A DNA stretch of 64,000 nucleotides, taken from contig CP115858.1 in NCBI GenBank assembly GCA_027920525.1, forward strand, positions 4,340,001 through 4,404,000. Direction: 5' to 3'. Below, in pieces: positions 815-46,695 of the stretch. Within the stretch, counting starts at the first letter, position 1. The number at the start of each line of letters is the position of its first letter. The translations under genes and the position numbers were made by a program. This stretch comes from Chryseobacterium daecheongense. Lineage in GTDB: Bacteria; Bacteroidota; Bacteroidia; Flavobacteriales; Weeksellaceae. The notes below the pieces were generated by a model that saw only the letters and a list, made by a program, of their open reading frames with translations, was not told the origin of the DNA and made no database searches.

Positions 815-870
815 CTTAAGATATCTTAAGAAAATTTAAGCTCTATGGGTAAAACAATATAAAATTTTTG
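815..870 (+). promoter_or_regulatory. Triple CTTAAG-type operator with -7-like box, no gene downstream
   Basis: Three half-sites lie at 10-base intervals: CTTAAG 815-820, CTTAAG 825-830 and TTTAAG 835-840, with A/T spacers. An AATTTTTG box ends at 870, 30 bases after the last half-site, against exactly 29 at the other sites. No ORF of useful length follows before the cassette promoter at 1486. It may be a dead promoter or drive a short RNA. An identical copy is at 38921-38976. Confidence 0.5.
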
Positions 871-1151
871 CGTAGCAATATCTATTCAGAATATTTGTTT
901 CTAATTAGGGAAATTATAAATTGTTATTAATTAGCTTGTTAGTGCAAATGATCGGCAGCAGATGAATGCAAAATAGATAATCATTTAATATAATGAAAAT
1001 TATATTTTAAGGATGGAATTATTAATTATTCATTCTGAGACTGGGCTTATTTTTAAAATAATCTTATCTATCTAATGAGTTTGAGCAAATTCATAAGTAT
1101 TAAGTTGTGGTTTCTTTGCATAGTATATTCTAACTAAAAGGATAATTTTGA

Positions 1152-1208
1152 CAAAAGTAAAAATCACTTGTATTATTTAAAAGCAAACTAGTATCACATT
1201 AATATCAC
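1152..1208 (-). promoter_or_regulatory. Leftward GTGATA-N5-GTGATA promoter
   Basis: On the minus strand two GTGATA repeats (1203-1208 and 1192-1197) are 5 bases apart, and 32 bases further on lies TACTTTTG (1152-1159). The same spacing occurs at 14254-14310 in front of a surface-protein gene. No leftward ORF was found between here and the Crp/Fnr gene ending its 5' side at 565, so the target is unclear. Copy B has it at 39258-39314. Confidence 0.5.
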
Positions 1209-1485
1209 TTATTGGATTTCATAAGATTTCTATGATGGGAATGAATGTATAAATGACGACCTTTAGCTAGTTTACTTTGTTCGTAGAACTTTGAAGCTTT
1301 TTATCATATATTTTCAGGGCATATTACCATTATCAAAGAACTTATTTTGGAATAATTGTAATAATGAATAAAATTTATTTCCTGAATTTGTGATTTGATA
1401 TGAATTTTATTTAACTTTACATTATTCTGTTATGAAAAAATAATGGGTTTTCTTAATTGTACTATAATTGTTAATGATTTCTGTT

Positions 1486-1530
1486 CTTAAGAAATCTTAA
1501 GAGTATTTGAGCTGTATCGTAGTAATTTTG
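1486..1530 (+). promoter_or_regulatory. Cassette promoter: CTTAAG dyad plus TAATTTTG box
   Basis: CTTAAG at 1486-1491 and 1496-1501 (spacer AAAT) form a TTAAG-N4-CTTAA dyad. Exactly 21 bases follow before TAATTTTG at 1523-1530. There is no well-spaced -33 TTTG element, as expected for an activator-dependent promoter. The dyad centre is about 36.5 bases before the end of the -7 box, so close to -41.5 for a start about 5 bases further on. It drives the FISUMP gene with a leader of about 240 bases. Confidence 0.7.
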
Positions 1531-1773
1531 CAAAAGATATTACATAGTAGTGACTAAGGATATTTTTTTTGATCAATATGGGAAGGGTAATTTTTTCAAG
1601 TTCATTTTGATCTTAGATAGTTCTAATGCGATTATTCATTAAAATAATAATAATCATAGTCACAAAAGCTTAAAATTACATCTATAGAAAAATCTTAATT
1701 CTAAAAAAGTTAGGTCTTTTCTATACACTTATTATTATATAATAGCAACTTATAATTTAATAAATTATCACAG

Positions 1774-3756
1774 ATGAGAAAAACACTATTACTAATTTTC
1801 GGATGCTTTTGTTGTATTGCTTTGAGCGGTCAGGTAGGCATCAATAATACGAATCCCAAGGCTACATTAGATGTAATGGCCAAAAACAGTGATGGGAGTA
1901 GCGCGGAGGGTCTTCTTGCCCCTCGTTTAACAGGCGATCAGATTCAATCAGGCAATTCCCGTTATGGTTTGGATCAGGCGGGAACTCTTATTTATGCCAC
2001 TTCTGGAGTAAGTAGCCCAGATGCTGTAACTCAAAATATTACCACTGCTGGTTATTATTACTTTGATGGTACTGCCTGGCAGGTTTTGGGAGGTAGTGCA
2101 GGAGTCTCTGATTATAATATTTATGATTCAGATGGATCTCTTTCGGGTAATCGTCAGGTTGATTTGTCAGGAAAGAACCTTGGTTTTACAGGCGGTAATG
2201 TTGGTGTTGGAATTGCAGTAGCGGATGCTTCAGCAATATTAGATGTAAGCAGTACGACGCAGGGTTTTGCTCCTCCTCGTGTTACCAAAGTACAAAGGGA
2301 TAATATTGTATCCCCAGTTTCCGGTTTGATTGTTTATTGTACAGATTGTGGAGTGGGTTCTACGGGTTGTTTATCCCTGAATTTGGGAACTCCTGGAGCA
2401 CCTAACTGGAGCTGTGTAGGCTCTACAACATCTTCTACCGTGGTAACTTCCGAATGTACCGGTTTTTCAGGTACCTACACTTCGGGCTCAGCCTTATCAG
2501 GAGCCAGTTATAAAGTAACGGTAACGAATAATTCTTTTTCTTCTGCGACGATCAATTTTTCTTCGGGAGATTTGGTTTTAAGTGGTATTACAGGTCTAAC
2601 GGTTGGTACTCCCACTTTTTCAGGAGGATCAGTAAGTGGGAGTAATGTTACTTTGACTTCTGGGCAGACAGTTGTTATAAGCTATCCTATTACGGGTACT
2701 CCGGGAGCCAATGGTACCCTTACGGGTGTCTGGACAAAGCTTTCCCTTTCTTGTACGAGTAGCCAAATAGTAGGTAAGGGTACTGCCCGTTTTACTCTTC
2801 CTCAAAACCTGTATGTTGCTTCTGTGAATTTGGGAGGAACAGGAGATGTCCAGGGAGTTGTAGATAACGGATCTAATAAGCTTACGATTCAAGTCCCTTA
2901 TACTGGAGGGAAAGGTAGTTATGACGCTTATACGAGCGCATGGATTTCCAATAATTCAGGAAGTGGCCAGGGAGGAGACACTAATAAGTTTAGGGTTTCT
3001 TATCCTGCGGGAACGTTTAGTAGTTCGGGAAGTATTGCGGTGAGTATTGAGGTAGATGGGGATGGTAGTTTTAATGCCTTAAAGCTTCTTCCTGGAAATA
3101 CTATGGTTTTGGGAACGCTTCCTTTTGCTCACAATGGCATTTATGATGGCGATATCATCATCCATATTGTAACGTGTGGAGCATTTATAGCACCGGGAGT
3201 CTTTAAGGCGTTTATGTGTCATAATTTAGGGGCTGATATGAATGCAGATCCCTTCCAACCTTCGGCCTCTATTCACGGAGCTAAATACCAATGGGGAGCT
3301 AAGACAGGCCAGGCAGGACGTTATATAAGCCAGGCGGATGATCAGGCTAATAGTGGTGCTATTGGAGGATGGATTAGTTCTCCGCTTCCTAATAACAGCT
3401 GGTCTGATACAACGAAGACTGCGCAGGATCCATGTCCTGTAGGATATAGGGTTCCTACAAATGACCAATGGCAGAAGGTGATTGCTAATAATAGCTTCAC
3501 TACTACAGGGACCTGGACAAATAGCCCAACGAATTACAGCAGTGGAGGCAAGTTTGGAAATACATTATTTCTGCCAGCCGCCGGCAGCCGTAACAACGTG
3601 AATGGAGCCCTGTTCAGCCGTGGCAACAACGGGTACTATTGGAGCAGTACGCAGTACGCAAGTGCCTACGCCTACAACTTGAACTTTGGTAGCACCGGGG
3701 TGAATGTCATCACAAACCGTACAAACGGGTACAGTGTTCGTTGTATTCAGGAATAG
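1774..3756 (+). CDS. Secreted FISUMP-domain (Fib_succ_major) protein, cassette gene 1, copy A
   Basis: A 660-residue exported protein. Residues 1-19 form a signal peptide (basic MRK, hydrophobic stretch, ending SGQ). A 'VGINNTNPKATLDV' segment follows, as in many Flavobacteriia surface or tail-fibre-like proteins. The middle is Gly/Ser/Thr-rich and probably beta-structured. From about residue 476 (FKAFMCHNLG) to the end lies a FISUMP domain with the signatures CPVGYRVPT, LPAAG, YYWSS and SVRCI; this domain is related to C-type-lectin-like folds. From about base 3570 (residue 600) composition changes abruptly: GC rises and AAC, TAC and GCC codons become frequent, as in variable regions of diversity-generating retroelements. 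The function is unknown; surface ligand binding is an inference. All three intact copies encode the same protein. Confidence 0.85.
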   Translation: MRKTLLLIFGCFCCIALSGQVGINNTNPKATLDVMAKNSDGSSAEGLLAPRLTGDQIQSGNSRYGLDQAGTLIYATSGVSSPDAVTQNITTAGYYYFDGTAWQVLGGSAGVSDYNIYDSDGSLSGNRQVDLSGKNLGFTGGNVGVGIAVADASAILDVSSTTQGFAPPRVTKVQRDNIVSPVSGLIVYCTDCGVGSTGCLSLNLGTPGAPNWSCVGSTTSSTVVTSECTGFSGTYTSGSALSGASYKVTVTNNSFSSATINFSSGDLVLSGITGLTVGTPTFSGGSVSGSNVTLTSGQTVVISYPITGTPGANGTLTGVWTKLSLSCTSSQIVGKGTARFTLPQNLYVASVNLGGTGDVQGVVDNGSNKLTIQVPYTGGKGSYDAYTSAWISNNSGSGQGGDTNKFRVSYPAGTFSSSGSIAVSIEVDGDGSFNALKLLPGNTMVLGTLPFAHNGIYDGDIIIHIVTCGAFIAPGVFKAFMCHNLGADMNADPFQPSASIHGAKYQWGAKTGQAGRYISQADDQANSGAIGGWISSPLPNNSWSDTTKTAQDPCPVGYRVPTNDQWQKVIANNSFTTTGTWTNSPTNYSSGGKFGNTLFLPAAGSRNNVNGALFSRGNNGYYWSSTQYASAYAYNLNFGSTGVNVITNRTNGYSVRCIQE

Positions 3757-3778
3757 GTTTTCATTTTTCATATTAAGC

Positions 3779-3814
3779 AAACCCTTGGTGGCTTTTGCCA
3801 CTAAGGGTTTTTTT
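3779..3814 (+). terminator. Rho-independent terminator after FISUMP gene
   Basis: A stem of about 14 bp (AAACCCTTGGTGGC paired with GCCACTAAGGGTTT, one mismatch) has a TTTT loop and is followed by a T run. It lies 23 bases after the stop codon, so gene 1 is probably transcribed mostly alone. The same hairpin is preserved in the decayed cassette. Confidence 0.8.
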
Positions 3815-3959
3815 ACTATTTAATGTCCCGGTTTAGGGATAAACTGGATTTTTCTTACCATACTTAACTTATAGTTGAGCTTTGTTTATCGTGTATTTTT
3901 AAGAATAGTCCGTGTTATAGATGTAGTTTATCAAAATTTACAGATCATAATTTTTATCT

Positions 3960-5294
3960 ATGAAAAAAATAATAGTATTAATTTTAGGGATTTTCTTTTT
4001 GGTATCCAAAGGGCAGGATATTGCAATGGATTTTCCTTATTTTAAAGGCAAGAGCTACGATTTTGTGCTCTTTCAGGGGAGTGAGGCCAAAACAGTGTTC
4101 CAAGGGACAATTCCTGAAAACGGGAAGTTTATTTTACATATTCCCAAGGAGTATGCTCCCTATCGGGGTATGAGTCGTTGGCTTATCACCGGGAGTAAAG
4201 AAGGGGGCGGACTTGATCTGCTGATCCCGGGGCACAGCTTCTCGGTAAGCTGCAGTGAAGAAAAGCCCACGGATAAGAACATTATCTACACCAATAATAC
4301 GGAAATCCCTGAGCTTAATAGTCTTTATAAAAAAGAGCAGGCGATCTTCGCCAGATATGGAGCCATGCTCCAGGCCACGAAATCTTTTTCAAAGACGGAT
4401 AAAAACTATTTGATTTTTGAAAAAGAGGCTCAAACTCAAGTTCAGGCTTATGGGGATTATCAGGGAGAGCTAAAGAAAAACAAGAGTTATGCATCAGGCC
4501 TTATCAATATCATTAATATTACCCAGGGTATAGGAACTGGTCTTTTTGAAGCGGAGGAAGAAAAGGCAAAAAACATCAGTGATTATATTACCAGGGATCT
4601 CGATTGGGACGCCCTGTATACTTCCGGGCACTGGACGGAGGTGATCGCTTCCTGGGCAGATATTCATGCCTTAGTATTGGAGGATCCTAAGTCCTTTGCC
4701 AAAGATGTAGAAACCGTAAGCTCCCGAATCAAAAATCCTGCGGAGTATAGGGATTTTGCAGAAAGACTGGCCGTGGCGTTCACCCGTAACGGGAGAGATG
4801 ATTTTATCAGTGCTATTACGCCCATCATCAGGGCTTGCGGCAAGATAAGTTCTTTCGAAGGCCCCTTATCTGTTTTTGTATCTGCAGCAGTAGGAATGCA
4901 GGCTCCAGATCTTGATCTTCGTGCTTCGGGATATAAAGTTCTTAAAAGTAGTTCCTTTTCAGGAAAGGGTTATGATAAAACACTATTACTTTTTTACCGA
5001 TCAGATTGTGGTCCCTGTGAAGATCTTTTAAAAGATCTTAGTGGGAAATATGATATGCTAAAATCAAGAGGGGTTCATATAATCTCTGTCTCCGGTGATC
5101 AGGCAGAATCGTTATTTAAAGAAAAGGGCAAGGAATTACCCTGGGAGGATAAATATTGTGATTATAAAGGTTTTGAAGGGGTTAATTTTAGAAATTACGG
5201 TATATCGGGTACCCCTACTGTTTTTCTAATTGATGGTGAGGGTAAAATAATAGAAAGAAGGGCTTCCCTAACGGATATTATGGGAAGGTTATGA
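3960..5294 (+). CDS. Exported thioredoxin-like (TlpA/ResA-type) protein, cassette gene 2, copy A
   Basis: A 444-residue protein with an N-terminal signal peptide (MKKIIVLILGIFFLVSKGQ). Residues 20-110 look like the beta-rich N-terminal domain found in Bacteroidota thioredoxin-like proteins. A helical middle follows (about 110-300). The C-terminal thioredoxin fold (about 315-444) has the active site CGPC at residues 350-353 (bases 5007-5018) and a cis-Pro-type GTPTVFLID segment. It probably acts as a periplasmic or envelope disulfide reductase; the partner is unknown. It follows the FISUMP gene after a terminator and a 200-base gap, so a separate weak promoter is likely. Residues about 82-117 (bases 4205-4310) differ strongly from copy M although the rest is almost identical. 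Confidence 0.85.
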   Translation: MKKIIVLILGIFFLVSKGQDIAMDFPYFKGKSYDFVLFQGSEAKTVFQGTIPENGKFILHIPKEYAPYRGMSRWLITGSKEGGGLDLLIPGHSFSVSCSEEKPTDKNIIYTNNTEIPELNSLYKKEQAIFARYGAMLQATKSFSKTDKNYLIFEKEAQTQVQAYGDYQGELKKNKSYASGLINIINITQGIGTGLFEAEEEKAKNISDYITRDLDWDALYTSGHWTEVIASWADIHALVLEDPKSFAKDVETVSSRIKNPAEYRDFAERLAVAFTRNGRDDFISAITPIIRACGKISSFEGPLSVFVSAAVGMQAPDLDLRASGYKVLKSSSFSGKGYDKTLLLFYRSDCGPCEDLLKDLSGKYDMLKSRGVHIISVSGDQAESLFKEKGKELPWEDKYCDYKGFEGVNFRNYGISGTPTVFLIDGEGKIIERRASLTDIMGRL

Positions 5295-5351
5295 TAAGAT
5301 CGTAAAATAGAAAGTTTTGCTTTCATAGGAAAAAATAAAAAAATAGAAGTA

Positions 5352-5582
5352 TTGATAACAAAAGATAAAATATTTTCAATGAGTATTGATGAAGCTTTCA
5401 TAGAAGAACATTTATTAGGAAAAAGCCCTAAAGAAATAGTTTGTTTTATGTCCAAAGTTCCAGATGCAGAAAAGGGTAATGAGTGGATGTATGTTACTAA
5501 AAAATACTTGTGGGGGATGTATAAAAGGAGGCTTTATTTGTATTTTCATAATGGAGTGGTGAGCGAATATTATTGTGAGTAA
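5352..5582 (+). CDS. Small ORF of unknown function, cassette gene 3, copy A
   Basis: A 76-residue ORF that can begin only at TTG 5352 or at an internal ATG (5379). The same frame stays open upstream to the two stops that end the thioredoxin-like gene, and that stretch also reads like protein (KIESFAFIGKNKK). The ATG overlapping the upstream stop (TTATGATAA) would enter this frame if one base were removed, so the original start may have been lost to a frameshift shared by all three copies. No signal peptide or known domain is seen. The sequence is Lys/Tyr-rich and ends VSEYYCE. It may be a pseudogene remnant. Confidence 0.45.
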   Translation: MITKDKIFSMSIDEAFIEEHLLGKSPKEIVCFMSKVPDAEKGNEWMYVTKKYLWGMYKRRLYLYFHNGVVSEYYCE

Positions 5583-5684
5583 CAAAAAGTGGAAGATCTG
5601 GATAATCCCCTTGGAATTATAATTAATAGAGCGGGATCGATGAACACAAGATAACCTATAATAAATAAACTAAAATCCATAAAA

Positions 5685-6191
5685 ATGAAAAGAGTACTAT
5701 TAATCAGTATGTTGTTTATTGGAAGTTTGTATAATGGACAAATAGCAATAGGAAAGTCTGAGCTTACTAATGAGTCTGTTTCTCTGGAGTTCTCTGGTGC
5801 AGAAAACCGGGGTCTTATCCTGCCTTATGTAGAAGATAAGACAGGTATCACCGAAAATGGGACTTTTATATTTGATACAACAGACAAAAAGGTAAAATTA
5901 TTAAGTAGTGGTGTATGGCATGATTTGAGTGTTGATCCGGGAGGAGTTGTAGATTTAAGCGATCAAAAGGATAGGGAAGAAAATGCAGACGGTAAGGTGG
6001 GTATTGGTAAGCAAAGCGCTGTTATGGGTATTCTGGTCCTTGAGGACAGTGATAAGGCCATGATTCTCCCTAAGGTGGCTAGTCCCCATTTAAATATCAT
6101 CAATCCTTCTGCCGGAATGATGGTGTATGATACAGTAGCTCGTCAGTTAGCCGTTTATAATGGGAGTGTATGGTCTTTTTGGAAGCCATAA
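5685..6191 (+). CDS. Exported small protein of unknown function, cassette gene 4, copy A
   Basis: A 168-residue protein with a signal peptide (MKRVLLISMLFIGSLYNGQ). It has two short segments of the kind seen in Flavobacteriia surface proteins: NRGLILPYV...GTFIFDT and AMILPKV...GMMVYDT, each followed by a variant of 'lavYNGSVW'. This duplicated pattern also occurs in the 660-aa and 361-aa proteins, so it may be a minimal version of the same architecture. No anchoring motif or catalytic site is visible. It lies about 100 bases after gene 3 and is followed by a strong terminator. Copy M differs by one residue near position 38 (Gly to Asp). Confidence 0.75.
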   Translation: MKRVLLISMLFIGSLYNGQIAIGKSELTNESVSLEFSGAENRGLILPYVEDKTGITENGTFIFDTTDKKVKLLSSGVWHDLSVDPGGVVDLSDQKDREENADGKVGIGKQSAVMGILVLEDSDKAMILPKVASPHLNIINPSAGMMVYDTVARQLAVYNGSVWSFWKP

Positions 6192-6302
6192 AACCATAAA
6201 AAAACCATAAAAGATATGGCGTTATAGCTACAGTTATAGCTATTAATCATAGGAGGTAAGTTGTCATGATCATTCTTTATTCTTTACCTATTCTTTCAAA
6301 AC

Positions 6303-6340
6303 AGAAGTCTATCTTTTTTAAAAAGATGGACTTCTTTATT
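6303..6340 (+). terminator. Terminator at the end of the cassette operon
   Basis: A long hairpin (AGAAGTC.ATCTTTTT paired with AAAAAGAT.GACTTCT) is followed by TTTATTTT. It closes the four-ORF cassette. The outward promoter lies only about 40 bases further on. Confidence 0.8.
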
Positions 6341-6377
6341 TTATTTAAGCTTATAAAGTTTTTAGATTTATCATTCT

Positions 6378-6422
6378 CTTAATATATCTTAAGTTAATTA
6401 TTGATGCTATAAGCTAATTTTG
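6378..6422 (+). promoter_or_regulatory. Outward-facing cassette-end promoter, drives GMC oxidoreductase
   Basis: CTTAAT 6378-6383 and CTTAAG 6388-6393 flank an ATAT spacer. After exactly 21 bases comes TAATTTTG at 6415-6422. The 5.1-kb repeat ends at 6435, just past the expected start of transcription. The GMC gene follows at 6735, giving a leader of about 300 bases. The equivalent site in cassette M feeds a different gene. Confidence 0.7.
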
Positions 6423-6734: not shown

Positions 6735-8288
6735 ATGGGAAAACAAGAAAATACTATAGGTCAGAAATATGATCATATTGTAATAGGTGCAGGGTCAGCC
6801 GGATGTATTTTAACAAGGAGATTACTTGACGCGGGTAAAAAAGTTTTGCTTATTGAGGCTGGGCCTATTGATAATAAACCCGAAATACATGATCCAATGG
6901 GATCTATAGCATTATGGAATTCGGATGTTGATTGGGCCTTTGAGACAGAGCCTCAAAAATTTGCTAATAATCGTAGGTTACCCTTTCCCAGGGGAAAAAC
7001 TTTGGGAGGGAGCAGTTCATTTAATGGAATGATCTATGTAAGAGGTGCAAAACAAGATTTTGATACCTGGGCCTATTTGGGAAACCATGGTTGGGATTAT
7101 GAATCAGTAAAAAATAATTTTAAAAGATTCGAGCAATTTATTCCTGAAGAGGATGCTATTAATAAGGATGAATTGGGAACTAAGGGTGATTTGCCTATAA
7201 CTTTAAATCCCCAACCGACCGATATTACAAAGGCGTTCATTGCCGATGCTGTTGATTTGGGAATTCCTTATAACCCAAATTATAATGATGGTAATGAGAT
7301 GTTTGGGGCCTATCATACATGGTTAACCCTTAAAGATAACAAAAGGATGAGTAGTTGGGTTGCTTTCCTGGAGCCTTTAAAAAATCATCCTAATCTTACT
7401 GTTTTGGTTAATGCCAATGTTACTCGGGTAGTATTTTCTGGCGAAACAGCAGTTGGTGTAGCATATACCATTGATTCTTCCGAAGATGAAGAACAAGCTT
7501 ATGCGAAAGATGATATTATATTAAGTGCAGGTTCAATTAATACTCCAAAGATATTAATGCTGTCAGGAATAGGAGATCAGGAGCATCTTAAAGAAGTAGG
7601 TATTAGTTCTAAAGTACATTTACCAGGTGTGGGACAGAATTTACAAGACCATATTAATGTTCCGCATGTATGGGAGACACATGAAAATATTCCTCTGTCT
7701 AAAGCCCAAGGTTTGGAAGGAACATTTTTTTGGAAAACAAAACCAGATATGAAGGTACCGGACATGCAACCAATTCTTATAACATTTCCATATCCCATGG
7801 AAAAATCACCTGAAAATGGTTTTACAATTGTTTCAACATTATTACACCCACAAAGTAGAGGGATAATTAAACTAAAATCAAACAACCCCAATGATAAACC
7901 TATTATTGATCCGAGATTTTTAGAAGATCCGGATGATTTGAATGCACTTGTACTGCAAACGCTTTTTCTTCGTAAATTAGTTACTGGAAAGCAAATGGGG
8001 TCGCTTATTAAAAAGGAATTTTCTCCAGGAGCTGAAGTTGATAGTATTGAAGATCTTGAAAACTTTATTAAGGCCCATGCTGTCAGTGATCACCACCAAG
8101 TGGGTACAGCTAAAATGGGTGTAGACAAAATGGCAGTTGTCGACCCACGGTTAAAGGTATATGGTGTTAAGAATCTTAGAGTAGCTGATGGCTCTATCAT
8201 GCCAATGATAAACACAGGTAATACAAACGCAGCTTGCATTATGATCGGAGACCGTGCTGCTGACTTTATACTAAATTCGGAAATATAG
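6735..8288 (+). CDS. GMC-family FAD-dependent oxidoreductase (choline dehydrogenase-like), copy A
   Basis: A 517-residue flavoprotein of the glucose-methanol-choline family. The FAD-binding GAGSAG motif is at residues 18-23, and the family's first signature (FPRGKTLGGSSSFNGM) is near 92. The second signature region is around AGSINTPKILMLSGIG. The catalytic His pair lies at about 453-454 (SDHHQVGTAKMG), and the C-terminal block NLRVADGSIMP...TGNTN carries the family's last conserved Asn/His position. It has no signal peptide and is therefore probably cytoplasmic, oxidising an alcohol to an aldehyde. The substrate cannot be read from sequence. It is expressed from the outward cassette promoter. 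The start ATG is preceded by an A/T-rich leader, normal for this group. Copy B (44841-46394) encodes the same protein. Confidence 0.92.
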   Translation: MGKQENTIGQKYDHIVIGAGSAGCILTRRLLDAGKKVLLIEAGPIDNKPEIHDPMGSIALWNSDVDWAFETEPQKFANNRRLPFPRGKTLGGSSSFNGMIYVRGAKQDFDTWAYLGNHGWDYESVKNNFKRFEQFIPEEDAINKDELGTKGDLPITLNPQPTDITKAFIADAVDLGIPYNPNYNDGNEMFGAYHTWLTLKDNKRMSSWVAFLEPLKNHPNLTVLVNANVTRVVFSGETAVGVAYTIDSSEDEEQAYAKDDIILSAGSINTPKILMLSGIGDQEHLKEVGISSKVHLPGVGQNLQDHINVPHVWETHENIPLSKAQGLEGTFFWKTKPDMKVPDMQPILITFPYPMEKSPENGFTIVSTLLHPQSRGIIKLKSNNPNDKPIIDPRFLEDPDDLNALVLQTLFLRKLVTGKQMGSLIKKEFSPGAEVDSIEDLENFIKAHAVSDHHQVGTAKMGVDKMAVVDPRLKVYGVKNLRVADGSIMPMINTGNTNAACIMIGDRAADFILNSEI

Positions 8289-8544: not shown

Positions 8545-8589
8545 AATAATATTTCTTAAGATTATTATCAGTTGGATGATTTACCTTTG
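8545..8589 (+). promoter_or_regulatory. CTTAAG-type promoter for surface protein
   Basis: One clear half-site CTTAAG (8555-8560) and a poor distal half (AATAAT 8545-8550). TACCTTTG follows at 8582-8589 after exactly 21 bases. It lies about 175 bases before the surface-protein start. Copy B: 46651-46695. Confidence 0.6.
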
Positions 8590-17605: not shown

Positions 17606-17650
17606 CTTAAGAATTCTTAAGAAAACTATCATTGCAATGTAATATTTTTG
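17606..17650 (+). promoter_or_regulatory. CTTAAG-type promoter of alcohol dehydrogenase
   Basis: CTTAAG 17606-17611 and 17616-17621 (spacer AATT), then exactly 21 bases, then TATTTTTG 17643-17650. The leader is about 67 bases. Confidence 0.7.
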
Positions 17651-17721: not shown

Positions 17722-18819
17722 ATGGAAATAGAAGCAGGATTGGTATTACGCCAGGGAACAGAGGTAGAAGTAACAAAACTTATTTTAGACGAACCTTTGG
17801 ATAATGAGGTATTGGTAAAGATGGTTTCTGCAGGAATCTGTAGAACTGATATTGATGTCATGGAACAGTATATCGAGACCCCTTTACCTGCAGTATTAGG
17901 TCATGAAGGAGCCGGTGTTGTTGTCAAAGTTGGAAAAGATGTTACAAAGGTAAAAGAAGGAGATCATGTTGTATTATCATTAAGCTCCTGTGGACAATGT
18001 GAAAAATGCAAATCTGGATTACCATCTTATTGTATAAAACACGTAGCTCTTAATTTTGGAGGAAGTCGTGTTGATGGATCTGTATGTCTGCATTGTTCAG
18101 ATGGAAATGCTGTACATAGCCATTTCTTTGGACAATCTTCTCATTCCTCATATTCTGTAGTAAATGAAACTTCAGTAATTAAGGTATCGAAGAATGCTGA
18201 CTTACGATACTTAGCTCCATTTGCTTGTGGAATTATGACAGGAGCAGGAGGTATTTTAAATACACTAAAGCCTGAAGCGGGAAGTTCCATAGTTATATAT
18301 GGAATGGGAGCAGTGGGATTAAGTGCTGTAATGGCCGCGAAAATTGCAGGGTGTAGTACTGTTATTGCTGTAGATATTAGTGAAAATAGGCTTCATCTAG
18401 CATTGGAGATGGGGGCAACACATACCTTTAATGGGAATGATAAAGCATTACAAGAACAAATATCAGCCGTTACAAATGGGGGGGCAGATTATGCATTTGA
18501 ATCCTCAGGTGTTAAAAAAGTGATGAACTCAGCTTTGGACACAATAAAGGAGAATGGTACTATGATTCTTACGGGAGTCTTACCTCAAGGAGAAACGGTT
18601 GCTTTTGATGCCTGGAACCTGGTAAGAGGACGTACAATAAAAGGAAGTATTATGGGAGACTGTGTTCCTGAGATTTTTATTCCTAAGCTAATTAGTTTTT
18701 ATGAAGAGGGTCGTTTTCCAGTAGATAAAATGATGAAATTCTTTAGTTTGAAAGATTTTAATGCTGCAATAAAAGAAAGTCTCTCTGGAGAAACTATTAA
18801 AGCAGTAATTACGTTTTAA
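17722..18819 (+). CDS. Zinc-dependent alcohol dehydrogenase (MDR family, aryl-alcohol type)
   Basis: A 365-residue medium-chain dehydrogenase. The catalytic zinc ligands are Cys40 and His61-Glu62 (GHEGAG), with a third Cys near 167 (APFACGIMTGAG). Four structural-zinc cysteines are at 90, 93, 96 and 104. The Rossmann motif GMGAVG is near 193-198, followed by an acidic residue (VIAVD) that favours NAD(H). The three extra features PYCIKH-like loop, FFGQSSHSSYS and ACG..TGAG match aryl- or benzyl-alcohol dehydrogenases and class III-like enzymes, so it probably interconverts an alcohol and aldehyde in the cytoplasm. It stands alone behind a CTTAAG promoter, the same control as the two GMC oxidoreductase genes. 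Confidence 0.9.
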   Translation: MEIEAGLVLRQGTEVEVTKLILDEPLDNEVLVKMVSAGICRTDIDVMEQYIETPLPAVLGHEGAGVVVKVGKDVTKVKEGDHVVLSLSSCGQCEKCKSGLPSYCIKHVALNFGGSRVDGSVCLHCSDGNAVHSHFFGQSSHSSYSVVNETSVIKVSKNADLRYLAPFACGIMTGAGGILNTLKPEAGSSIVIYGMGAVGLSAVMAAKIAGCSTVIAVDISENRLHLALEMGATHTFNGNDKALQEQISAVTNGGADYAFESSGVKKVMNSALDTIKENGTMILTGVLPQGETVAFDAWNLVRGRTIKGSIMGDCVPEIFIPKLISFYEEGRFPVDKMMKFFSLKDFNAAIKESLSGETIKAVITF

Positions 18820-18950: not shown

Positions 18951-18994
18951 ATTAATATTTCTTAAGATGAATGATAGTTTTTTGCTTTACCTTG
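18951..18994 (+). promoter_or_regulatory. CTTAAG-type promoter without a coding gene
   Basis: Distal half ATTAAT (18951-18956), proximal half CTTAAG (18961-18966), then 21 bases and TACCTTG (18988-18994), one T short of the consensus. It points to a region with no ORF but with a strong terminator at 19187-19216. Confidence 0.5.
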
Positions 18995-18999
18995 TAGAT

Positions 19000-20582: not shown

Positions 20583-20627
20583 CTTAAGATTTCTTAAGTA
20601 AACTGTGGTTGTTATCATTTAATTTTG
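20583..20627 (+). promoter_or_regulatory. CTTAAG-type promoter of a 52-aa ORF
   Basis: CTTAAG 20583-20588 and 20593-20598 (spacer ATTT), exactly 21 bases, then TAATTTTG 20620-20627. The only downstream ORF is 20698-20856. It also lies about 75 bases upstream (on the other strand) of the acyltransferase start. Confidence 0.65.
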
Positions 20628-21239: not shown

Positions 21240-22090
21240 ATCTGTAATAATAAATAAATGTATTTCCTGTTATTGTGAGTTTGTTTGACTTTACATTATT
21301 CTGTTATACTAAATAATAGGTTTTCTTACTTGTACGATAATTGTTAAGGATTTCTCTTCTTAAGAAATCTTAAGAATAAGTAGACTGTATTATTGTAGTT
21401 TTGCAAATGATATTACATAGTAGTGACTAAGGATAATTTTTTTGATAAATATGGGAGGGGAATTTTCTAATTGATAGTGCAACAAATTGCAGCAGTGGGA
21501 CAAGTTTTGAAATACATTATTTCTGGCTGCTGCGAGGAAACGTAGTTTTGGTACGCTGAATAGTTTCCTCCAGGATAGAGGGAGCGTTGGAGGATATCAG
21601 ACTTCTTTTCTGAGTTTTTTAGTTTAGTTTTTATTTCGAATGGCTCTGTGGGTATAAATACAGAGTCATTGGTACCCTTCCCACCCGTTGTATTAAGGAA
21701 TAGGTTTTCATTTTCATATTAAGCAAACCCTTAGTGGCTTTTGTCACTAAGGGTTTTTTATTATTTTATATCCCTATGTGGAGATAAGTGTGATTTTTTT
21801 ATGTTTTATACTAGTTGAGCTTTGTTTATATCCTGTTTTTAAATCCGTTTGCGGGTTTATAGGATTTTGTTTTTCAAGATTTACAGATCATAATTTTTTA
21901 ATATATGAAAATGATAGTATTAATTTTTGGACTTATTTTTTATCTTGATTGGAAAGAGCTTAATACTTCTGGACATTGTCTGGGGTGATCACTTACTAGA
22001 TAGATCACTATACCACGAATTTTCTGCATAATGCTAAAGGTTTTTCACGTAATTTTCAACTATAAACCAAGATAAAGAGCCCAGGGTAGT
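21240..22090 (+). pseudogene. Decayed cassette (promoter, FISUMP tail, start of thioredoxin-like gene)
   Basis: The region keeps a cassette promoter (CTTAAG 21359-21364 and 21369-21374, 21 bases, TAGTTTTG 21396-21403). It then jumps straight to the FISUMP C-terminal part (from about 21485; readable 'FGNTLFL' and 'RGSVGGYQ'). The conserved terminator hairpin (21725-21760) follows, then a signal-peptide start of the thioredoxin-like gene (ATG near 21905) fused to its 'LDW..LNTSGH' middle. Large internal deletions and frameshifts have removed the rest. After the 'LFL' anchor its sequence differs completely from the three intact cassettes, as expected for a variable region. Confidence 0.75.
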
Positions 22091-23650: not shown

Positions 23651-23695
23651 CTTAAGAAATCTTAAGAGTATTTGAGCTGTATCGTTGTAATTTTG
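23651..23695 (+). promoter_or_regulatory. Cassette M promoter (CTTAAG type)
   Basis: CTTAAG 23651-23656 and 23661-23666 (spacer AAAT), 21 bases, then TAATTTTG 23688-23695. It differs from copy A by one base between operator and box (A to T), leaving the spacing unchanged. Confidence 0.7.
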
Positions 23696-28541: not shown

Positions 28542-28586
28542 CTTAATATTTCTTAAGTTAATTATTGATGCTATAAGCTAATTTTG
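28542..28586 (+). promoter_or_regulatory. Outward promoter of cassette M, drives DUF6759 gene
   Basis: CTTAAT 28542-28547 and CTTAAG 28552-28557 (spacer ATTT), 21 bases, TAATTTTG 28579-28586. The cassette repeat ends at 28599 and unrelated sequence follows. The next gene starts at 28713. Confidence 0.7.
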
Positions 28587-34257: not shown

Positions 34258-34302
34258 CTTAAGAATTATTAAGAAGTAATTAGTAATTGATAAATAATTT
34301 TG
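34258..34302 (+). promoter_or_regulatory. CTTAAG-type promoter of redox operon
   Basis: CTTAAG 34258-34263 and ATTAAG 34268-34273 (spacer AATT), 21 bases, TAATTTTG 34295-34302. The predicted transcription start (about 34307) lies after the first in-frame ATG at 34287, so translation must begin at a later ATG (34326). Confidence 0.7.
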
Positions 34303-34325
34303 TTTCAAGTTTTAAAAAGATACAT

Positions 34326-35996
34326 ATGGAACGAAGAGAAGCTATTAAAATTGGTGCATTAACGATGGCTACAGGTTTAATAGGAATTACAACTAATGCT
34401 ATGAAAAATACTCTAGATAATTTTGGGGTAGATTTGGATTATGATAATAATCAGGAAGGTGATTTTGATGAGGATAAGCCTTACGATTTTATTATTGCAG
34501 GAGCTGGGTCAGCGGGTGCTGTATTAGCAAATCGTTTATCAGAGGAAAAGAAGTGGAAGATTTTGTTAATAGAGGCAGGATTGGATTTTAATCCCGAAAG
34601 TAATCCGGAACTTATTTATAGTAGCAATATAATTGCTGCAAATTTGGATAAGAGATATGATTGGGGTTATAAAAGTACTGAACAAGAATATGGTAATGTT
34701 ATTATTGCACCAAGAGGAAAAGGAGTTGGAGGCAGTTCTAATATCAATGGTGCAGTAGCAGTTCGAGCTTTAAAATTTGATTTTGATCGTTGGACAAAAA
34801 TGGGACTTGAAGGTTGGAAATTTGATGATGTACTACCATATTATAAAAAAATGGAAAGTACAGAACATGGATCAGATAAGTGGCATGGGAGAAAAGGACC
34901 TTTTCCTATTCATCAAATGGAAAAGCATTATATAACGCCAGTGCAAAGTGCGGTTGTTGATACTGCAGTTGCTATGGGATATAATGAAGTTATGGACTTT
35001 AATGATCCGAATGAAAATAATGGAGCGGGTCCTATTCCTATGAATGTTATTAATGGTGTACGTGTAAATGTAGGGATTGCTTATCTTAATAATCAAGTAA
35101 GAAAACGTAATAATCTCCATATTTTAAGCGAAAGCTTAATAGATAAAGTAATAATAGAAAAAGGAAAAGCAAAGGGTATTTTATTAGCAAATGGGAAGCG
35201 AATTTTTGGGAGAGAAGTAATACTATCTTCAGGAGCTTACGGTAGTGCTGCAATTTTAATGCGATCTGGTATTGGACCAGCGAAGGACCTAAAGGAGTTG
35301 GATATTGATGTCGTTTTAGATGCCCCAGTTGGAAAGCGTTTACTTGACCATCCTTTTTACTGGATGAATTTTGCGGCAGTACCGGAGAAAAATACAAGAA
35401 TACATCCTGTAGTAGGATCGCAGCTCTGGACTAATTCTACTAGAGCTTCCTCAAAGAATGAGCTTGATATAGCTATCTCACCATCACATTTGGTAGACCC
35501 TTCTACTAGCCCTACAAAATCAATATTTACTCTTGGATTGGAACTCATGAACTGTCAGTCAGAGGGATCAGTTAAATTGGCGAGCAAAAATCCAGCTGAT
35601 ATGCCGATTATCGATTTTAGGCACCTAACATCAGAGGAAGATATGTTACGGATGATAGAATGTTTTAAAATTGCCCGTAAAATGGTTACAGTTAGTCCAT
35701 TAAAGGAGTTTTATCATAGCGAAATTTACCCAGGCTCTGATGTTCAAAGTGATGAACAGATTAGAAAAGCCCTATTAAGTGGAGTATCCACACTCCAGCA
35801 TCCTTGTTCAACAGTTCCAATGGGTAAAGAAGGAGGTGAGAATTCAGTAGTAGATGCTGAAGGACGTCTATATGGTATACAAAATCTAAGAGTTGTTGAT
35901 GCTTCTATATTTCCTGAAATTCCTCTTATCAACTTAAATCCTCAAGTTATAATGGTAGCAGAAAAGATAGCGGATAAAATTAAAGGTAAAATTTAA
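34326..35996 (+). CDS. GMC-family FAD-dependent oxidoreductase, exported type
   Basis: A protein of 556 residues when started at ATG 34326; an upstream ATG (34287) is excluded because it precedes the -7 box. The N-terminus [25 protein letters not shown] has a twin-arginine-like signal (RRE followed by a hydrophobic stretch), fitting export of a folded flavoprotein. The FAD motif GAGSAG is near residues 55-60, the family block [15 protein letters not shown] near 130, and the C-terminal catalytic region has [11 protein letters not shown] with the active His and LINLNPQ. It is the first gene of an operon with a hydrolase and an FMN reductase. The substrate is probably an alcohol. The family resemblance to 6735-8288 is clear but identity is low. 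Confidence 0.9.
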
Positions 35997-38920: not shown

Positions 38921-38976
38921 CTTAAGATATCTTAAGAAAATTTAAGCTCTATGGGTAAAACAATATAAAATTTTTG
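38921..38976 (+). promoter_or_regulatory. Triple CTTAAG operator, copy B
   Basis: Same array as at 815-870, with no gene directly downstream. Confidence 0.5.
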
Positions 38977-39591: not shown

Positions 39592-39636
39592 CTTAAGAAA
39601 TCTTAAGAGTATTTGAGCTGTATCGTAGTAATTTTG
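39592..39636 (+). promoter_or_regulatory. Cassette B promoter (CTTAAG type)
   Basis: CTTAAG 39592-39597 and 39602-39607, 21 bases, TAATTTTG 39629-39636. Confidence 0.7.
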
Positions 39637-41862: not shown

Positions 41863-41884
41863 GTTTTCATTTTTCATATTAAGC

Positions 41885-41920
41885 AAACCCTTGGTGGCTT
41901 TTGCCACTAAGGGTTTTTTT
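41885..41920 (+). terminator. Terminator after FISUMP gene, copy B
   Basis: Identical hairpin to 3779-3814. Confidence 0.8.
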
Positions 41921-42065
41921 ACTATTTAATGTCCCGGTTTAGGGATAAACTGGATTTTTCTTACCATACTTAACTTATAGTTGAGCTTTGTTTATCGTGT
42001 ATTTTTAAGAATAGTCCGTGTTATAGATGTAGTTTATCAAAATTTACAGATCATAATTTTTATCT

Positions 42066-43400
42066 ATGAAAAAAATAATAGTATTAATTTTAGGGATTTT
42101 CTTTTTGGTATCCAAAGGGCAGGATATTGCAATGGATTTTCCTTATTTTAAAGGCAAGAGCTACGATTTTGTGCTCTTTCAGGGGAGTGAGGCCAAAACA
42201 GTGTTCCAAGGGACAATTCCTGAAAACGGGAAGTTTATTTTACATATTCCCAAGGAGTATGCTCCCTATCGGGGTATGAGTCGTTGGCTTATCACCGGGA
42301 GTAAAGAAGGGGGCGGACTTGATCTGCTGATCCCGGGGCACAGCTTCTCGGTAAGCTGCAGTGAAGAAAAGCCCACGGATAAGAACATTATCTACACCAA
42401 TAATACGGAAATCCCTGAGCTTAATAGTCTTTATAAAAAAGAGCAGGCGATCTTCGCCAGATATGGAGCCATGCTCCAGGCCACGAAATCTTTTTCAAAG
42501 ACGGATAAAAACTATTTGATTTTTGAAAAAGAGGCTCAAACTCAAGTTCAGGCTTATGGGGATTATCAGGGAGAGCTAAAGAAAAACAAGAGTTATGCAT
42601 CAGGCCTTATCAATATCATTAATATTACCCAGGGTATAGGAACTGGTCTTTTTGAAGCGGAGGAAGAAAAGGCAAAAAACATCAGTGATTATATTACCAG
42701 GGATCTCGATTGGGACGCCCTGTATACTTCCGGGCACTGGACGGAGGTGATCGCTTCCTGGGCAGATATTCATGCCTTAGTATTGGAGGATCCTAAGTCC
42801 TTTGCCAAAGATGTAGAAACCGTAAGCTCCCGAATCAAAAATCCTGCGGAGTATAGGGATTTTGCAGAAAGACTGGCCGTGGCGTTCACCCGTAACGGGA
42901 GAGATGATTTTATCAGTGCTATTACGCCCATCATCAGGGCTTGCGGCAAGATAAGTTCTTTCGAAGGCCCCTTATCTGTTTTTGTATCTGCAGCAGTAGG
43001 AATGCAGGCTCCAGATCTTGATCTTCGTGCTTCGGGATATAAAGTTCTTAAAAGTAGTTCCTTTTCAGGAAAGGGTTATGATAAAACACTATTACTTTTT
43101 TACCGATCAGATTGTGGTCCCTGTGAAGATCTTTTAAAAGATCTTAGTGGGAAATATGATATGCTAAAATCAAGAGGGGTTCATATAATCTCTGTCTCCG
43201 GTGATCAGGCAGAATCGTTATTTAAAGAAAAGGGCAAGGAATTACCCTGGGAGGATAAATATTGTGATTATAAAGGTTTTGAAGGGGTTAATTTTAGAAA
43301 TTACGGTATATCGGGTACCCCTACTGTTTTTCTAATTGATGGTGAGGGTAAAATAATAGAAAGAAGGGCTTCCCTAACGGATATTATGGGAAGGTTATGA
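42066..43400 (+). CDS. Exported thioredoxin-like protein, cassette gene 2, copy B
   Basis: A 444-residue product identical to that at 3960, including the A-type patch at residues 82-117 (42311-42416). Signal peptide and CGPC (350-353) are intact. Confidence 0.85.
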   Translation: MKKIIVLILGIFFLVSKGQDIAMDFPYFKGKSYDFVLFQGSEAKTVFQGTIPENGKFILHIPKEYAPYRGMSRWLITGSKEGGGLDLLIPGHSFSVSCSEEKPTDKNIIYTNNTEIPELNSLYKKEQAIFARYGAMLQATKSFSKTDKNYLIFEKEAQTQVQAYGDYQGELKKNKSYASGLINIINITQGIGTGLFEAEEEKAKNISDYITRDLDWDALYTSGHWTEVIASWADIHALVLEDPKSFAKDVETVSSRIKNPAEYRDFAERLAVAFTRNGRDDFISAITPIIRACGKISSFEGPLSVFVSAAVGMQAPDLDLRASGYKVLKSSSFSGKGYDKTLLLFYRSDCGPCEDLLKDLSGKYDMLKSRGVHIISVSGDQAESLFKEKGKELPWEDKYCDYKGFEGVNFRNYGISGTPTVFLIDGEGKIIERRASLTDIMGRL

Positions 43401-43457
43401 TAAGATCGTAAAATAGAAAGTTTTGCTTTCATAGGAAAAAATAAAAAAATAGAAGTA

Positions 43458-43688
43458 TTGATAACAAAAGATAAAATATTTTCAATGAGTATTGATGAAG
43501 CTTTCATAGAAGAACATTTATTAGGAAAAAGCCCTAAAGAAATAGTTTGTTTTATGTCCAAAGTTCCAGATGCAGAAAAGGGTAATGAGTGGATGTATGT
43601 TACTAAAAAATACTTGTGGGGGATGTATAAAAGGAGGCTTTATTTGTATTTTCATAATGGAGTGGTGAGCGAATATTATTGTGAGTAA
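43458..43688 (+). CDS. Small ORF of unknown function, cassette gene 3, copy B
   Basis: Identical to 5352-5582, with the same TTG start or lost-start question. Confidence 0.45.
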   Translation: MITKDKIFSMSIDEAFIEEHLLGKSPKEIVCFMSKVPDAEKGNEWMYVTKKYLWGMYKRRLYLYFHNGVVSEYYCE

Positions 43689-43790
43689 CAAAAAGTGGAA
43701 GATCTGGATAATCCCCTTGGAATTATAATTAATAGAGCGGGATCGATGAACACAAGATAACCTATAATAAATAAACTAAAATCCATAAAA

Positions 43791-44297
43791 ATGAAAAGAG
43801 TACTATTAATCAGTATGTTGTTTATTGGAAGTTTGTATAATGGACAAATAGCAATAGGAAAGTCTGAGCTTACTAATGAGTCTGTTTCTCTGGAGTTCTC
43901 TGGTGCAGAAAACCGGGGTCTTATCCTGCCTTATGTAGAAGATAAGACAGGTATCACCGAAAATGGGACTTTTATATTTGATACAACAGACAAAAAGGTA
44001 AAATTATTAAGTAGTGGTGTATGGCATGATTTGAGTGTTGATCCGGGAGGAGTTGTAGATTTAAGCGATCAAAAGGATAGGGAAGAAAATGCAGACGGTA
44101 AGGTGGGTATTGGTAAGCAAAGCGCTGTTATGGGTATTCTGGTCCTTGAGGACAGTGATAAGGCCATGATTCTCCCTAAGGTGGCTAGTCCCCATTTAAA
44201 TATCATCAATCCTTCTGCCGGAATGATGGTGTATGATACAGTAGCTCGTCAGTTAGCCGTTTATAATGGGAGTGTATGGTCTTTTTGGAAGCCATAA
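43791..44297 (+). CDS. Exported small protein, cassette gene 4, copy B
   Basis: Identical to the 168-residue product at 5685, with Gly at the position where copy M has Asp. Confidence 0.75.
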   Translation: MKRVLLISMLFIGSLYNGQIAIGKSELTNESVSLEFSGAENRGLILPYVEDKTGITENGTFIFDTTDKKVKLLSSGVWHDLSVDPGGVVDLSDQKDREENADGKVGIGKQSAVMGILVLEDSDKAMILPKVASPHLNIINPSAGMMVYDTVARQLAVYNGSVWSFWKP

Positions 44298-44408
44298 AAC
44301 CATAAAAAAACCATAAAAGATATGGCGTTATAGCTACAGTTATAGCTATTAATCATAGGAGGTAAGTTGTCATGATCATTCTTTATTCTTTACCTATTCT
44401 TTCAAAAC

Positions 44409-44446
44409 AGAAGTCTATCTTTTTTAAAAAGATGGACTTCTTTATT
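44409..44446 (+). terminator. Terminator at end of cassette B
   Basis: Same hairpin as 6303-6340. Confidence 0.8.
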
Positions 44447-44483
44447 TTATTTAAGCTTATAAAGTTTTTAGATTTATCATTCT

Positions 44484-44528
44484 CTTAATATATCTTAAGT
44501 TAATTATTGATGCTATAAGCTAATTTTG
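44484..44528 (+). promoter_or_regulatory. Outward promoter of cassette B
   Basis: CTTAAT/CTTAAG pair, 21 bases, TAATTTTG 44521-44528, driving the GMC gene at 44841. Confidence 0.7.
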
Positions 44529-44840
44529 TAATACAAGCTATTCTATTTCAGTGCTTTGGATAAATGAGTGATTGATTCCCGTAAGTATTTATTTTTAACC
44601 GTGTCATCTAATTTACAGCTTGATAATTCGGAGTGATAGAATTTGGATTTTTATGATAGAGAGCTGTTCTTGAATTTTTAAGAAAAAAATATAGACTTAT
44701 ACCCAACAATTATCTCAACATTTTAAAGTGAGCAGAAATGCTATTATAGTTGGAAGACAAGATTTTTAGTTTAACTAAACCTTGGATGTTAAATTACTTA
44801 ATAAGAGATACTAACATATTTATAAAATATAATTAATTAT

Positions 44841-46394
44841 ATGGGAAAACAAGAAAATACTATAGGTCAGAAATATGATCATATTGTAATAGGTGCAGGG
44901 TCAGCCGGATGTATTTTAACAAGGAGATTACTTGACGCGGGTAAAAAAGTTTTGCTTATTGAGGCTGGGCCTATTGATAATAAACCCGAAATACATGATC
45001 CAATGGGATCTATAGCATTATGGAATTCGGATGTTGATTGGGCCTTTGAGACAGAGCCTCAAAAATTTGCTAATAATCGTAGGTTACCCTTTCCCAGGGG
45101 AAAAACTTTGGGAGGGAGCAGTTCATTTAATGGAATGATCTATGTAAGAGGTGCAAAACAAGATTTTGATACCTGGGCCTATTTGGGAAACCATGGTTGG
45201 GATTATGAATCAGTAAAAAATAATTTTAAAAGATTCGAGCAATTTATTCCTGAAGAGGATGCTATTAATAAGGATGAATTGGGAACTAAGGGTGATTTGC
45301 CTATAACTTTAAATCCCCAACCGACCGATATTACAAAGGCGTTCATTGCCGATGCTGTTGATTTGGGAATTCCTTATAACCCAAATTATAATGATGGTAA
45401 TGAGATGTTTGGGGCCTATCATACATGGTTAACCCTTAAAGATAACAAAAGGATGAGTAGTTGGGTTGCTTTCCTGGAGCCTTTAAAAAATCATCCTAAT
45501 CTTACTGTTTTGGTTAATGCCAATGTTACTCGGGTAGTATTTTCTGGCGAAACAGCAGTTGGTGTAGCATATACCATTGATTCTTCCGAAGATGAAGAAC
45601 AAGCTTATGCGAAAGATGATATTATATTAAGTGCAGGTTCAATTAATACTCCAAAGATATTAATGCTGTCAGGAATAGGAGATCAGGAGCATCTTAAAGA
45701 AGTAGGTATTAGTTCTAAAGTACATTTACCAGGTGTGGGACAGAATTTACAAGACCATATTAATGTTCCGCATGTATGGGAGACACATGAAAATATTCCT
45801 CTGTCTAAAGCCCAAGGTTTGGAAGGAACATTTTTTTGGAAAACAAAACCAGATATGAAGGTACCGGACATGCAACCAATTCTTATAACATTTCCATATC
45901 CCATGGAAAAATCACCTGAAAATGGTTTTACAATTGTTTCAACATTATTACACCCACAAAGTAGAGGGATAATTAAACTAAAATCAAACAACCCCAATGA
46001 TAAACCTATTATTGATCCGAGATTTTTAGAAGATCCGGATGATTTGAATGCACTTGTACTGCAAACGCTTTTTCTTCGTAAATTAGTTACTGGAAAGCAA
46101 ATGGGGTCGCTTATTAAAAAGGAATTTTCTCCAGGAGCTGAAGTTGATAGTATTGAAGATCTTGAAAACTTTATTAAGGCCCATGCTGTCAGTGATCACC
46201 ACCAAGTGGGTACAGCTAAAATGGGTGTAGACAAAATGGCAGTTGTCGACCCACGGTTAAAGGTATATGGTGTTAAGAATCTTAGAGTAGCTGATGGCTC
46301 TATCATGCCAATGATAAACACAGGTAATACAAACGCAGCTTGCATTATGATCGGAGACCGTGCTGCTGACTTTATACTAAATTCGGAAATATAG
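44841..46394 (+). CDS. GMC-family FAD-dependent oxidoreductase, copy B
   Basis: Same 517-residue protein as 6735-8288, giving the cell two identical copies under identical promoters. GAGSAG at 18-23, His pair at 453-454 and all family blocks are intact, so both copies look functional. Confidence 0.92.
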   Translation: MGKQENTIGQKYDHIVIGAGSAGCILTRRLLDAGKKVLLIEAGPIDNKPEIHDPMGSIALWNSDVDWAFETEPQKFANNRRLPFPRGKTLGGSSSFNGMIYVRGAKQDFDTWAYLGNHGWDYESVKNNFKRFEQFIPEEDAINKDELGTKGDLPITLNPQPTDITKAFIADAVDLGIPYNPNYNDGNEMFGAYHTWLTLKDNKRMSSWVAFLEPLKNHPNLTVLVNANVTRVVFSGETAVGVAYTIDSSEDEEQAYAKDDIILSAGSINTPKILMLSGIGDQEHLKEVGISSKVHLPGVGQNLQDHINVPHVWETHENIPLSKAQGLEGTFFWKTKPDMKVPDMQPILITFPYPMEKSPENGFTIVSTLLHPQSRGIIKLKSNNPNDKPIIDPRFLEDPDDLNALVLQTLFLRKLVTGKQMGSLIKKEFSPGAEVDSIEDLENFIKAHAVSDHHQVGTAKMGVDKMAVVDPRLKVYGVKNLRVADGSIMPMINTGNTNAACIMIGDRAADFILNSEI

Positions 46395-46428
46395 TGTTAT
46401 TTTAATATTGAATATTTGATTAGTTTTT

Positions 46429-46460
46429 AAAGGCCTGGATTAAAATAATCCAGGCCTTTT
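46429..46460 (+). terminator. Terminator after GMC gene, copy B
   Basis: Same hairpin as 8323-8354. Confidence 0.85.
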
Positions 46461-46650
46461 ATATAAGATATCATAAAAGTAAATAATTCACATATGATAA
46501 AATTCTTAAAATATAATATATATGATAAATACTTTCGTATATGTATAGATTTTATATTAGAAAGTATATAGAACAAAGATAAATGGTGAAAAATCTTCCT
46601 TTTACTTGGAGCTTTTTTATACAAAAAAACATTAAATTCAATAGAAAGTG

Positions 46651-46695
46651 AATAATATTTCTTAAGATTATTATCAGTTGGATGATTTACCTTTG
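46651..46695 (+). promoter_or_regulatory. CTTAAG-type promoter of intact surface protein
   Basis: CTTAAG proximal half at 46661-46666, 21 bases, TACCTTTG 46688-46695. Confidence 0.6.

Follow-up and report, generated by a model that had tools for sequence, protein, structure and literature searches.

A putative Crp/Fnr-activated class II promoter array on an accessory stretch of the Chryseobacterium daecheongense genome

Crp/Fnr-Type Promoters and the Locus

Among the closest described systems is the FNR box of Escherichia coli, TTGAT-N4-ATCAA, which has 5-bp halves and a 4-bp spacer and in class II FF-41.5 promoters is read by a protein of the Crp/Fnr fold. In the portions consulted, work on FNR gives -41.5 as the class II position of its test promoters, Arg-213 as a main contact to the box and four N-terminal Cys as the iron-sulfur ligands (PMC4505428). 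Here we describe a 64-kb stretch of Chryseobacterium daecheongense (hereafter the window; genome positions 4340001-4404000 of a single 4.86-Mb contig) in which an operator-promoter of 45 bases, CTTAAG-N4-CTTAAG-N21-TAnnTTTG, recurs in front of different genes, and which encodes two Crp/Fnr-family regulators, hereafter P0001 and P0002. The operator shares half-site length, spacer, predicted centre and regulator fold with the FNR system. In contrast, its half-site is TTAAG (extended, CTTAAG) rather than TTGAT, so that the FNR box itself is not found, the position of Arg-213 holds Tyr or Phe, and the promoter has the -7 box of Bacteroidota.

Other relatives differ in other ways. BT4338 (Crp/Cur) of Bacteroides is likewise a Crp-like Bacteroidota regulator with a palindromic site and, in the parts of its description consulted, no known cAMP; however, its palindrome is longer and different (consensus wwwTATGTTnTAnAACATAwww) and serves sugar catabolism, and it does not match the operator here. 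The closest solved relative by sequence, aligning over nearly full length, is the Cytophaga hutchinsonii protein 3dn7, with recognition helix TPEYLSEIRKK; its entry title (cyclic nucleotide binding regulatory protein) gives no operator or function. Chryseobacterium operons encoding a Crp-family protein, a 206-aa protein and DoxX carry the same operator at the same spacing next to the regulator gene. There, however, one or two matches per genome lie directly behind the regulator gene, and no other genome of the family has more than two, whereas this genome has 13 (at ≤1 mismatch; copies and one reverse reading included). A literature search of open-licence PMC papers found none on an operator like CTTAAG-N4-CTTAAG.

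A Fixed Operator-Promoter Geometry

The original prediction listed 13 sites in the window, and all 13 were recovered at their positions. At each, exactly 21 bases separate the second half-site from the -7 box, which reads TAnnTTTG at 12 of them and TACCTTGT, one T short, at 18951. The weak first halves that had been described are also as reported (AATAAT at 8545 and 46651, ATTAAT at 18951). A search of the window for the 45-base form at ≤3 mismatches returned 15 matches, against a mean of 0.18 and a maximum of 2 in 100 shuffles. These comprise 12 of the 13 listed sites, near-dyads at 825 and 38931 that lack a proper box, and a reverse-strand reading of the palindrome at 20583; site 18951, with more than three mismatches, falls outside.

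A genome-wide scan with a control had been proposed as a check on this pattern. Across the genome there are 32 long-form matches at ≤3 mismatches and 18 for the backwards control, and all 15 with ≤2 mismatches are confined to one 93-kb stretch (4293862-4386651). This stretch also holds 5 of the 17 matches with three mismatches; the 12 that are scattered look like background, because the backwards control alone yields 18 at this threshold. Exact dyads number eight in the genome, all within the window. What stands out is the exact dyad together with the long form that includes the box.

Spacing was also examined in its own right. In a 159-kb region, all 12 dyads with zero or one mismatch that have TAnnTTTG 10-40 bases downstream use N21 (copies included), as do only 2 of 7 dyads with two mismatches and a box. 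In another family, where 299 genomes were searched with spacing free from 6 to 36 (31 values), 17 of 18 exact dyads fall at N21 and the backwards control gives 2 matches (binomial 8e-25); the genome on which this search was centred (G551) had been picked because it had matches, and 15 of 16 dyads are at N21 without it. Some of the 299 genomes are also among the 80 exact-match loci discussed below.

Where does this geometry place a bound protein? The TAnnTTTG box of Flavobacterium psychrophilum lies at -12 to -5, according to the consulted part of a published study (PMC9723704), and with this position taken from a relative, N21 sets the dyad centre at -41.5. The predicted class II position is thus consistent with both the geometry and the published box. 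The absence of a -33 TTTG also stands: none lies in the -33 register at the window sites (identical-letter duplicates scored once), so these promoters look activator-dependent. Outside the window, the site at 4299297(-) does have TTTG in this register.

Regulators and Recognition Helix

P0001 (33595..34167, - strand; 190 aa, helix TPEHLSYLRKK) and P0002 (38066..38671, - strand; 201 aa, helix TPEHLSFLRKK) both contain PF00027, a cyclic-nucleotide-binding-type sensor domain, above cut-off (E 4e-11 and 9.4e-14, respectively) and a C-terminal helix-turn-helix. A full-length Crp/Fnr fold is predicted for P0002 (pLDDT 93.9), of which residues 1-195 align to FNR and CRP structures. Crp/Fnr genes had been reported at 1, 33595 and 38066; the family assignment holds, with the qualification that the first and last are copies of one gene, the duplicate of P0002 lying only partly inside the window (2..565, - strand; whole gene 4339960-4340565). 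The four-cysteine motif of FNR is absent, with two Cys in P0002 and three in P0001, none within the first 40 residues. The cAMP-binding cassette of CRP has Glu, Arg and Ser. Alignment of P0002 to the catabolite gene activator chain 4i01 places Asp, Ser and Asp at these positions. In the consulted part of a further study, neither cAMP nor adenylate cyclase is said to have been detected in Bacteroidetes (PMC10294740). The regulator family as a whole has 33 matches in this genome and 28 in a second genome of the species (G104).

The residue following the conserved Ser of the recognition helix (Asn in one), which aligns by eye with FNR Arg-213, is distributed differently in operator-linked regulators and in others. 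It is Arg in none of 16 distinct operator-linked helices and in 14 of 20 distinct others (Fisher 1.3e-5; P0001 and P0002 were left out of both sets and one truncated gene was dropped). P0001 has Tyr and P0002 Phe at this position; Val and Ala occupy it in two Crp genes that lie upstream of the window and are broken or truncated. We infer that where this Arg is lost, the G of TTGAT is lost as well.

Linkage to Crp/Fnr Genes in Other Genomes

The exact pattern was sought in one genome per species across 84,980 species (257 billion bases), where 18 fixed bases would be matched about 7 times by chance at even composition. It was found in 95 stretches, of which 80 were listed and examined; three of the 80 records are titled outside Bacteroidota. 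In 60 of these 80 loci the match starts close to where a same-strand Crp/Fnr gene ends, at most 4 bp ahead of that end and at most 92 bp past it. In 37 of the 60 the stop codon lies within the first CTTAAG. Coding constraint as an explanation for this overlap was rejected, since the other 23 sites lie 6-92 bp past the gene end. The 60 loci are not all independent, as a single Chryseobacterium-type regulator is common to 27 of them (helix TVEYLSYLRKK in 26, truncated in one); the others represent several regulator types and target operons.

The layout seen in other genera also occurs close to the window. Upstream of it, the Crp/Fnr genes noted above as broken or truncated (4299316-4299717 and 4306188-4306430, - strand) are each followed immediately by an operator, and this in turn by a short-chain dehydrogenase gene. 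Leaving this genome aside, the family has 51 matches, 46 of them exact, and in about 45 the promoter is one and the same and follows a Crp gene; all 29 family operator loci that were inspected have a Crp gene. In a sample of the order, 12 of 395 genomes contain the exact pattern, with no backwards-control match among those listed. The second genome of the species has no operator-promoter at ≤1 mismatch and no close relative of P0002 among 28 Crp-type matches (best 31% identity, none above 35%).

Relatives were also sought in a large protein set, where 12 proteins reached 1e-20: two belong to the window itself, one (P0003, on a 14-kb contig) is a 58% relative, and the others have ≤43% identity. 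Among plasmids, 92 records contain a match, and the ten listed have ≤34% identity.

Another Crp gene has a variant palindrome, CTTAAACCAGTTTAAG, at its stop codon, 5' of a DoxX gene (L069 2060-2075, position 4025222 of this genome, G000; and L186 2060-2075). This variant, which is also present in the same-species genome, is possibly a sister operator.

Interpretation and Alternatives

Taken together, these observations make it very likely, as judged from sequence, that the sites form a class II, Crp/Fnr-activated promoter array read by P0001 and/or P0002, a local regulon on an accessory stretch. That a Crp/Fnr protein is the regulator had been proposed from geometry alone, and the 60 of 80 linked loci, the fixed distance to the box and the common helix feature now lend support to that proposal. 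The element would be an activator-dependent class II promoter of the Bacteroidota kind, at which a Crp/Fnr-family dimer (P0001 and/or P0002, encoded alongside) may bind the 16-bp palindrome CTTAAG-N4-CTTAAG centred at -41.5. The downstream half-site would sit in place of the missing -33 element, and the bound regulator would recruit sigma-A polymerase to TAnnTTTG; both the binding and the activation at the dyad are inferred. The element may have arrived with its regulators on the accessory stretch and spread over unrelated genes, partly by duplication, giving a local multi-promoter regulon of oxidoreductases (two GMC enzymes, alcohol and short-chain dehydrogenases, perhaps with esterase and flavin reductase followers) and surface-type proteins.

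Several findings weigh against this reading. The Crp genes of the window are divergent from the operator's target, not upstream of it as in the 60 outside cases, and the operator-linked regulators elsewhere are only ~28-34% identical overall to P0001 and P0002. Twenty of the 80 listed operators have no Crp gene end within 100 bp; five of these loci are too short on the relevant side as judged by reading (L124, L129, L137, L145 and L158), and four others (L089, L092, L097 and L117) may be further targets, because the same contig holds another listed site that adjoins a Crp gene. At 4024663 and 1140802, helices that lack Arg occur without this exact site. In this genome, one of 16 further Crp loci has a 6-4-6 palindrome with a box at N21 and there is no spacing preference, on which grounds the rule that every Crp paralog has such a palindrome was rejected; the layout is thus not general for the Crp family. 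No relative of P0002 at 1e-40 was found in 319 other family genomes (best 10 candidates scored per genome), so the exact regulator-operator pair cannot be followed across species.

Some counts also run against it. The short dyad TTAAG-N4-CTTAA at one mismatch occurs 15 times against 8.6 expected, a number reached by 4 of 100 shuffles (not significant), and CTTAAG-N4-CTTAAG at ≤2 mismatches is rarer genome-wide than its backwards control (249 vs 452); enrichment of the short dyad alone was rejected on these counts. At ≤1 mismatch, 50 of 320 family genomes match, compared with ~70 that have a backwards-control match (counted from rows), so this tally alone proves nothing. In a sample of 395 genomes of the class, 7 of 10 matches are at N21, six of the seven from this genome; in the other 394 genomes, 4 match, one of them at N21, against ~6 with a control match, and the class-wide scan was rejected as support because its matches are no more numerous than those of the control.

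Could another protein read the operator? The window also encodes an AraC-type regulator (29571-31133) and a LuxR/TPR-type regulator (11416-12924, and a copy), the LuxR-type domain of the latter matching just under the Pfam cut-off. Because each CTTAAG is a palindrome in its own right, a 10-bp direct repeat is another way to read the site, and three half-sites in 10-bp steps occur at 815 and 38921. We consider reading by either protein quite improbable, given that the same operator stands behind Crp/Fnr genes in 60 of the 80 outside loci, a linkage scored for Crp/Fnr genes. It seems unlikely, too, that a Crp/Fnr protein binds as a repressor and blocks polymerase at -41.5: the dyad overlaps the -33 region, where repressors act too, and the direction of the effect is not readable from sequence, but the window sites lack a -33 TTTG, and -41.5 is the class II position in the FNR test promoters as far as the consulted account of them goes. 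That the motif lacks any regulatory role and owes its abundance to duplication of one promoter is scarcely credible. Several copies do stem from duplications of 20.9 and 5.1 kb; however, dyad and spacing are preserved across seven contexts in the window and three more upstream, whose flanks differ, and N21 is strict in another family.

Starting from a class II array read by P0001 and/or P0002, a wider scheme can be sketched only tentatively, and we would not give it even odds. A one-operon Crp/Fnr switch that has an operator of its own and an altered recognition residue may have spread in Bacteroidota, and the island regulon may have formed by copying of its promoter onto redox and surface genes, with an aromatic, quinone or aldehyde-type ligand in place of a cyclic nucleotide. 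With an operator, its fixed position, a candidate rule (CTTAAG is paired with helices in which Ser is not followed by Arg) and natural regulator-operator-target triplets from many genera, the DNA-recognition code of this little-known Crp/Fnr group can be tested directly. The array further suggests a way in which acquired DNA can become wired as a single unit.

Sites, Candidate Target Genes and Possible Signal

All 13 listed sites are on the + strand. The first (1486..1530, CTTAAGAAATCTTAAG-N21-TAATTTTG) lies 5' of a 660-aa FISUMP-type protein (ATG 1774) and its followers, and is duplicated at 39592..39636. The second (6378..6422, CTTAATATATCTTAAG-N21-TAATTTTG, one mismatch in the first half) lies 5' of a GMC oxidoreductase (6735..8288, + strand), a candidate target, and is duplicated at 44484..44528. 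A weak operator-promoter (AATAATATTTCTTAAG-N21-TACCTTTG) occurs at 8545..8589, 5' of a copy, split into short frames, of the gene at 46872, and again at 46651..46695, followed by that 407-aa gene. The site at 17606..17650 has a perfect 16-bp palindrome (CTTAAGAATTCTTAAG) and precedes a zinc alcohol dehydrogenase, a further candidate target (17722..18819, + strand). The degenerate site at 18951..18995 (ATTAATATTTCTTAAG-N21-TACCTTGT) has no ORF of at least 90 aa nearby downstream on the same strand and is probably a remnant.

The operator-promoter at 20583..20627 lies 5' of a 52-aa open reading frame (ORF). Read on the reverse strand (20598-20554), its dyad is followed after N21 by a near -7 box, TAAATTGG, 5' of an acyltransferase gene (19333-20508, - strand), and the palindrome is possibly a two-way promoter. 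The site at 21359..21403 belongs to a truncated cassette remnant with ~81% identity to the 1486 region over ~250 bp, that at 23651..23695 to the third cassette copy, and that at 28542..28586 lies 5' of a DUF6759 protein (28713). The last context (34258..34302, CTTAAGAATTATTAAG) lies between the divergent P0001 gene and the genes of a second GMC oxidoreductase (34287..35996, + strand; candidate target), an esterase-type protein (36211-37191) and an FMN reductase-type protein (37287-37853) on the same strand. Separately, three half-sites in 10-bp steps (CTTAAGATATCTTAAGAAAATTTAAG) at 815..840, upstream of a Crp/Fnr gene, have no box at N21; their duplicate at 38921..38946 lies 250 bp upstream of P0002 and shows, on the gene strand, TAAATTTA at N22 (a weak box, by eye).

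The claim that the operator controls most genes in the window was too strong. Of the 45 window ORFs of at least 90 aa, ten come next after a site, although one of the ten is a fragment and lies 695 bp from its site, and about 18 of 45 are covered when same-strand followers, such as the alpha/beta hydrolase and FMN reductase, are included, in addition to the 52-aa ORF. Besides the oxidoreductases, candidate targets in the window are surface-type proteins and the DUF6759 protein; upstream of it they are two short-chain dehydrogenases and an FGE-sulfatase-type protein. Elsewhere, in a survey of ten proteins chosen from those listed, operator-led genes encode the 206-aa protein and DoxX, a carboxymuconolactone decarboxylase-type protein with a DoxX-like gene, FMN reductase-GNAT-ABM, and beta-lactamase-fold proteins with CHMI nearby; a LigB gene is second in line. 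The common tone of these targets appears to be small-molecule redox or aromatic chemistry. From the chemistry of the target genes, and nothing more, we guess that the sensed ligand is a small aromatic, quinone or aldehyde-type compound; it is presumably neither cAMP nor an FNR-type iron-sulfur cluster.

Duplications and Neighboring Features

A 20.9-kb stretch is present twice in the genome (4335296-4356211 and 4373402-4394319, 99.96% identity), seen in the window as a direct repeat of 1-16211 and 38107-54319 (99.95%, period 38106). A 5.1-kb cassette has a third copy at 23489-28599 (98.9% identity). By duplication, 1486 equals 39592 and is related to 23651 and 21359, 6378 equals 44484 and is related to 28542, and 8545 equals 46651. 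The window sites therefore collapse to seven contexts, namely the 1486 group (including the remnant at 21359), the 6378 and 8545 groups, 17606, 18951, 20583 and 34258. The three extra contexts upstream are 4316912, 4293862 and the related pair 4306181(-)/4299297(-).

Of the two copies of the 407-aa gene, the second (46872-48095) is open and the first (8766-9987) is broken into short frames. No tRNA genes were found in five flanking stretches. Between the cassette copies lies a resolvase-type recombinase gene (22149-22700), a possible agent of the rearrangements. The end of the window (55708-64000) carries topoisomerase, DUF3945/DUF4099 and CBS-domain genes without operators and looks like part of a mobile element.

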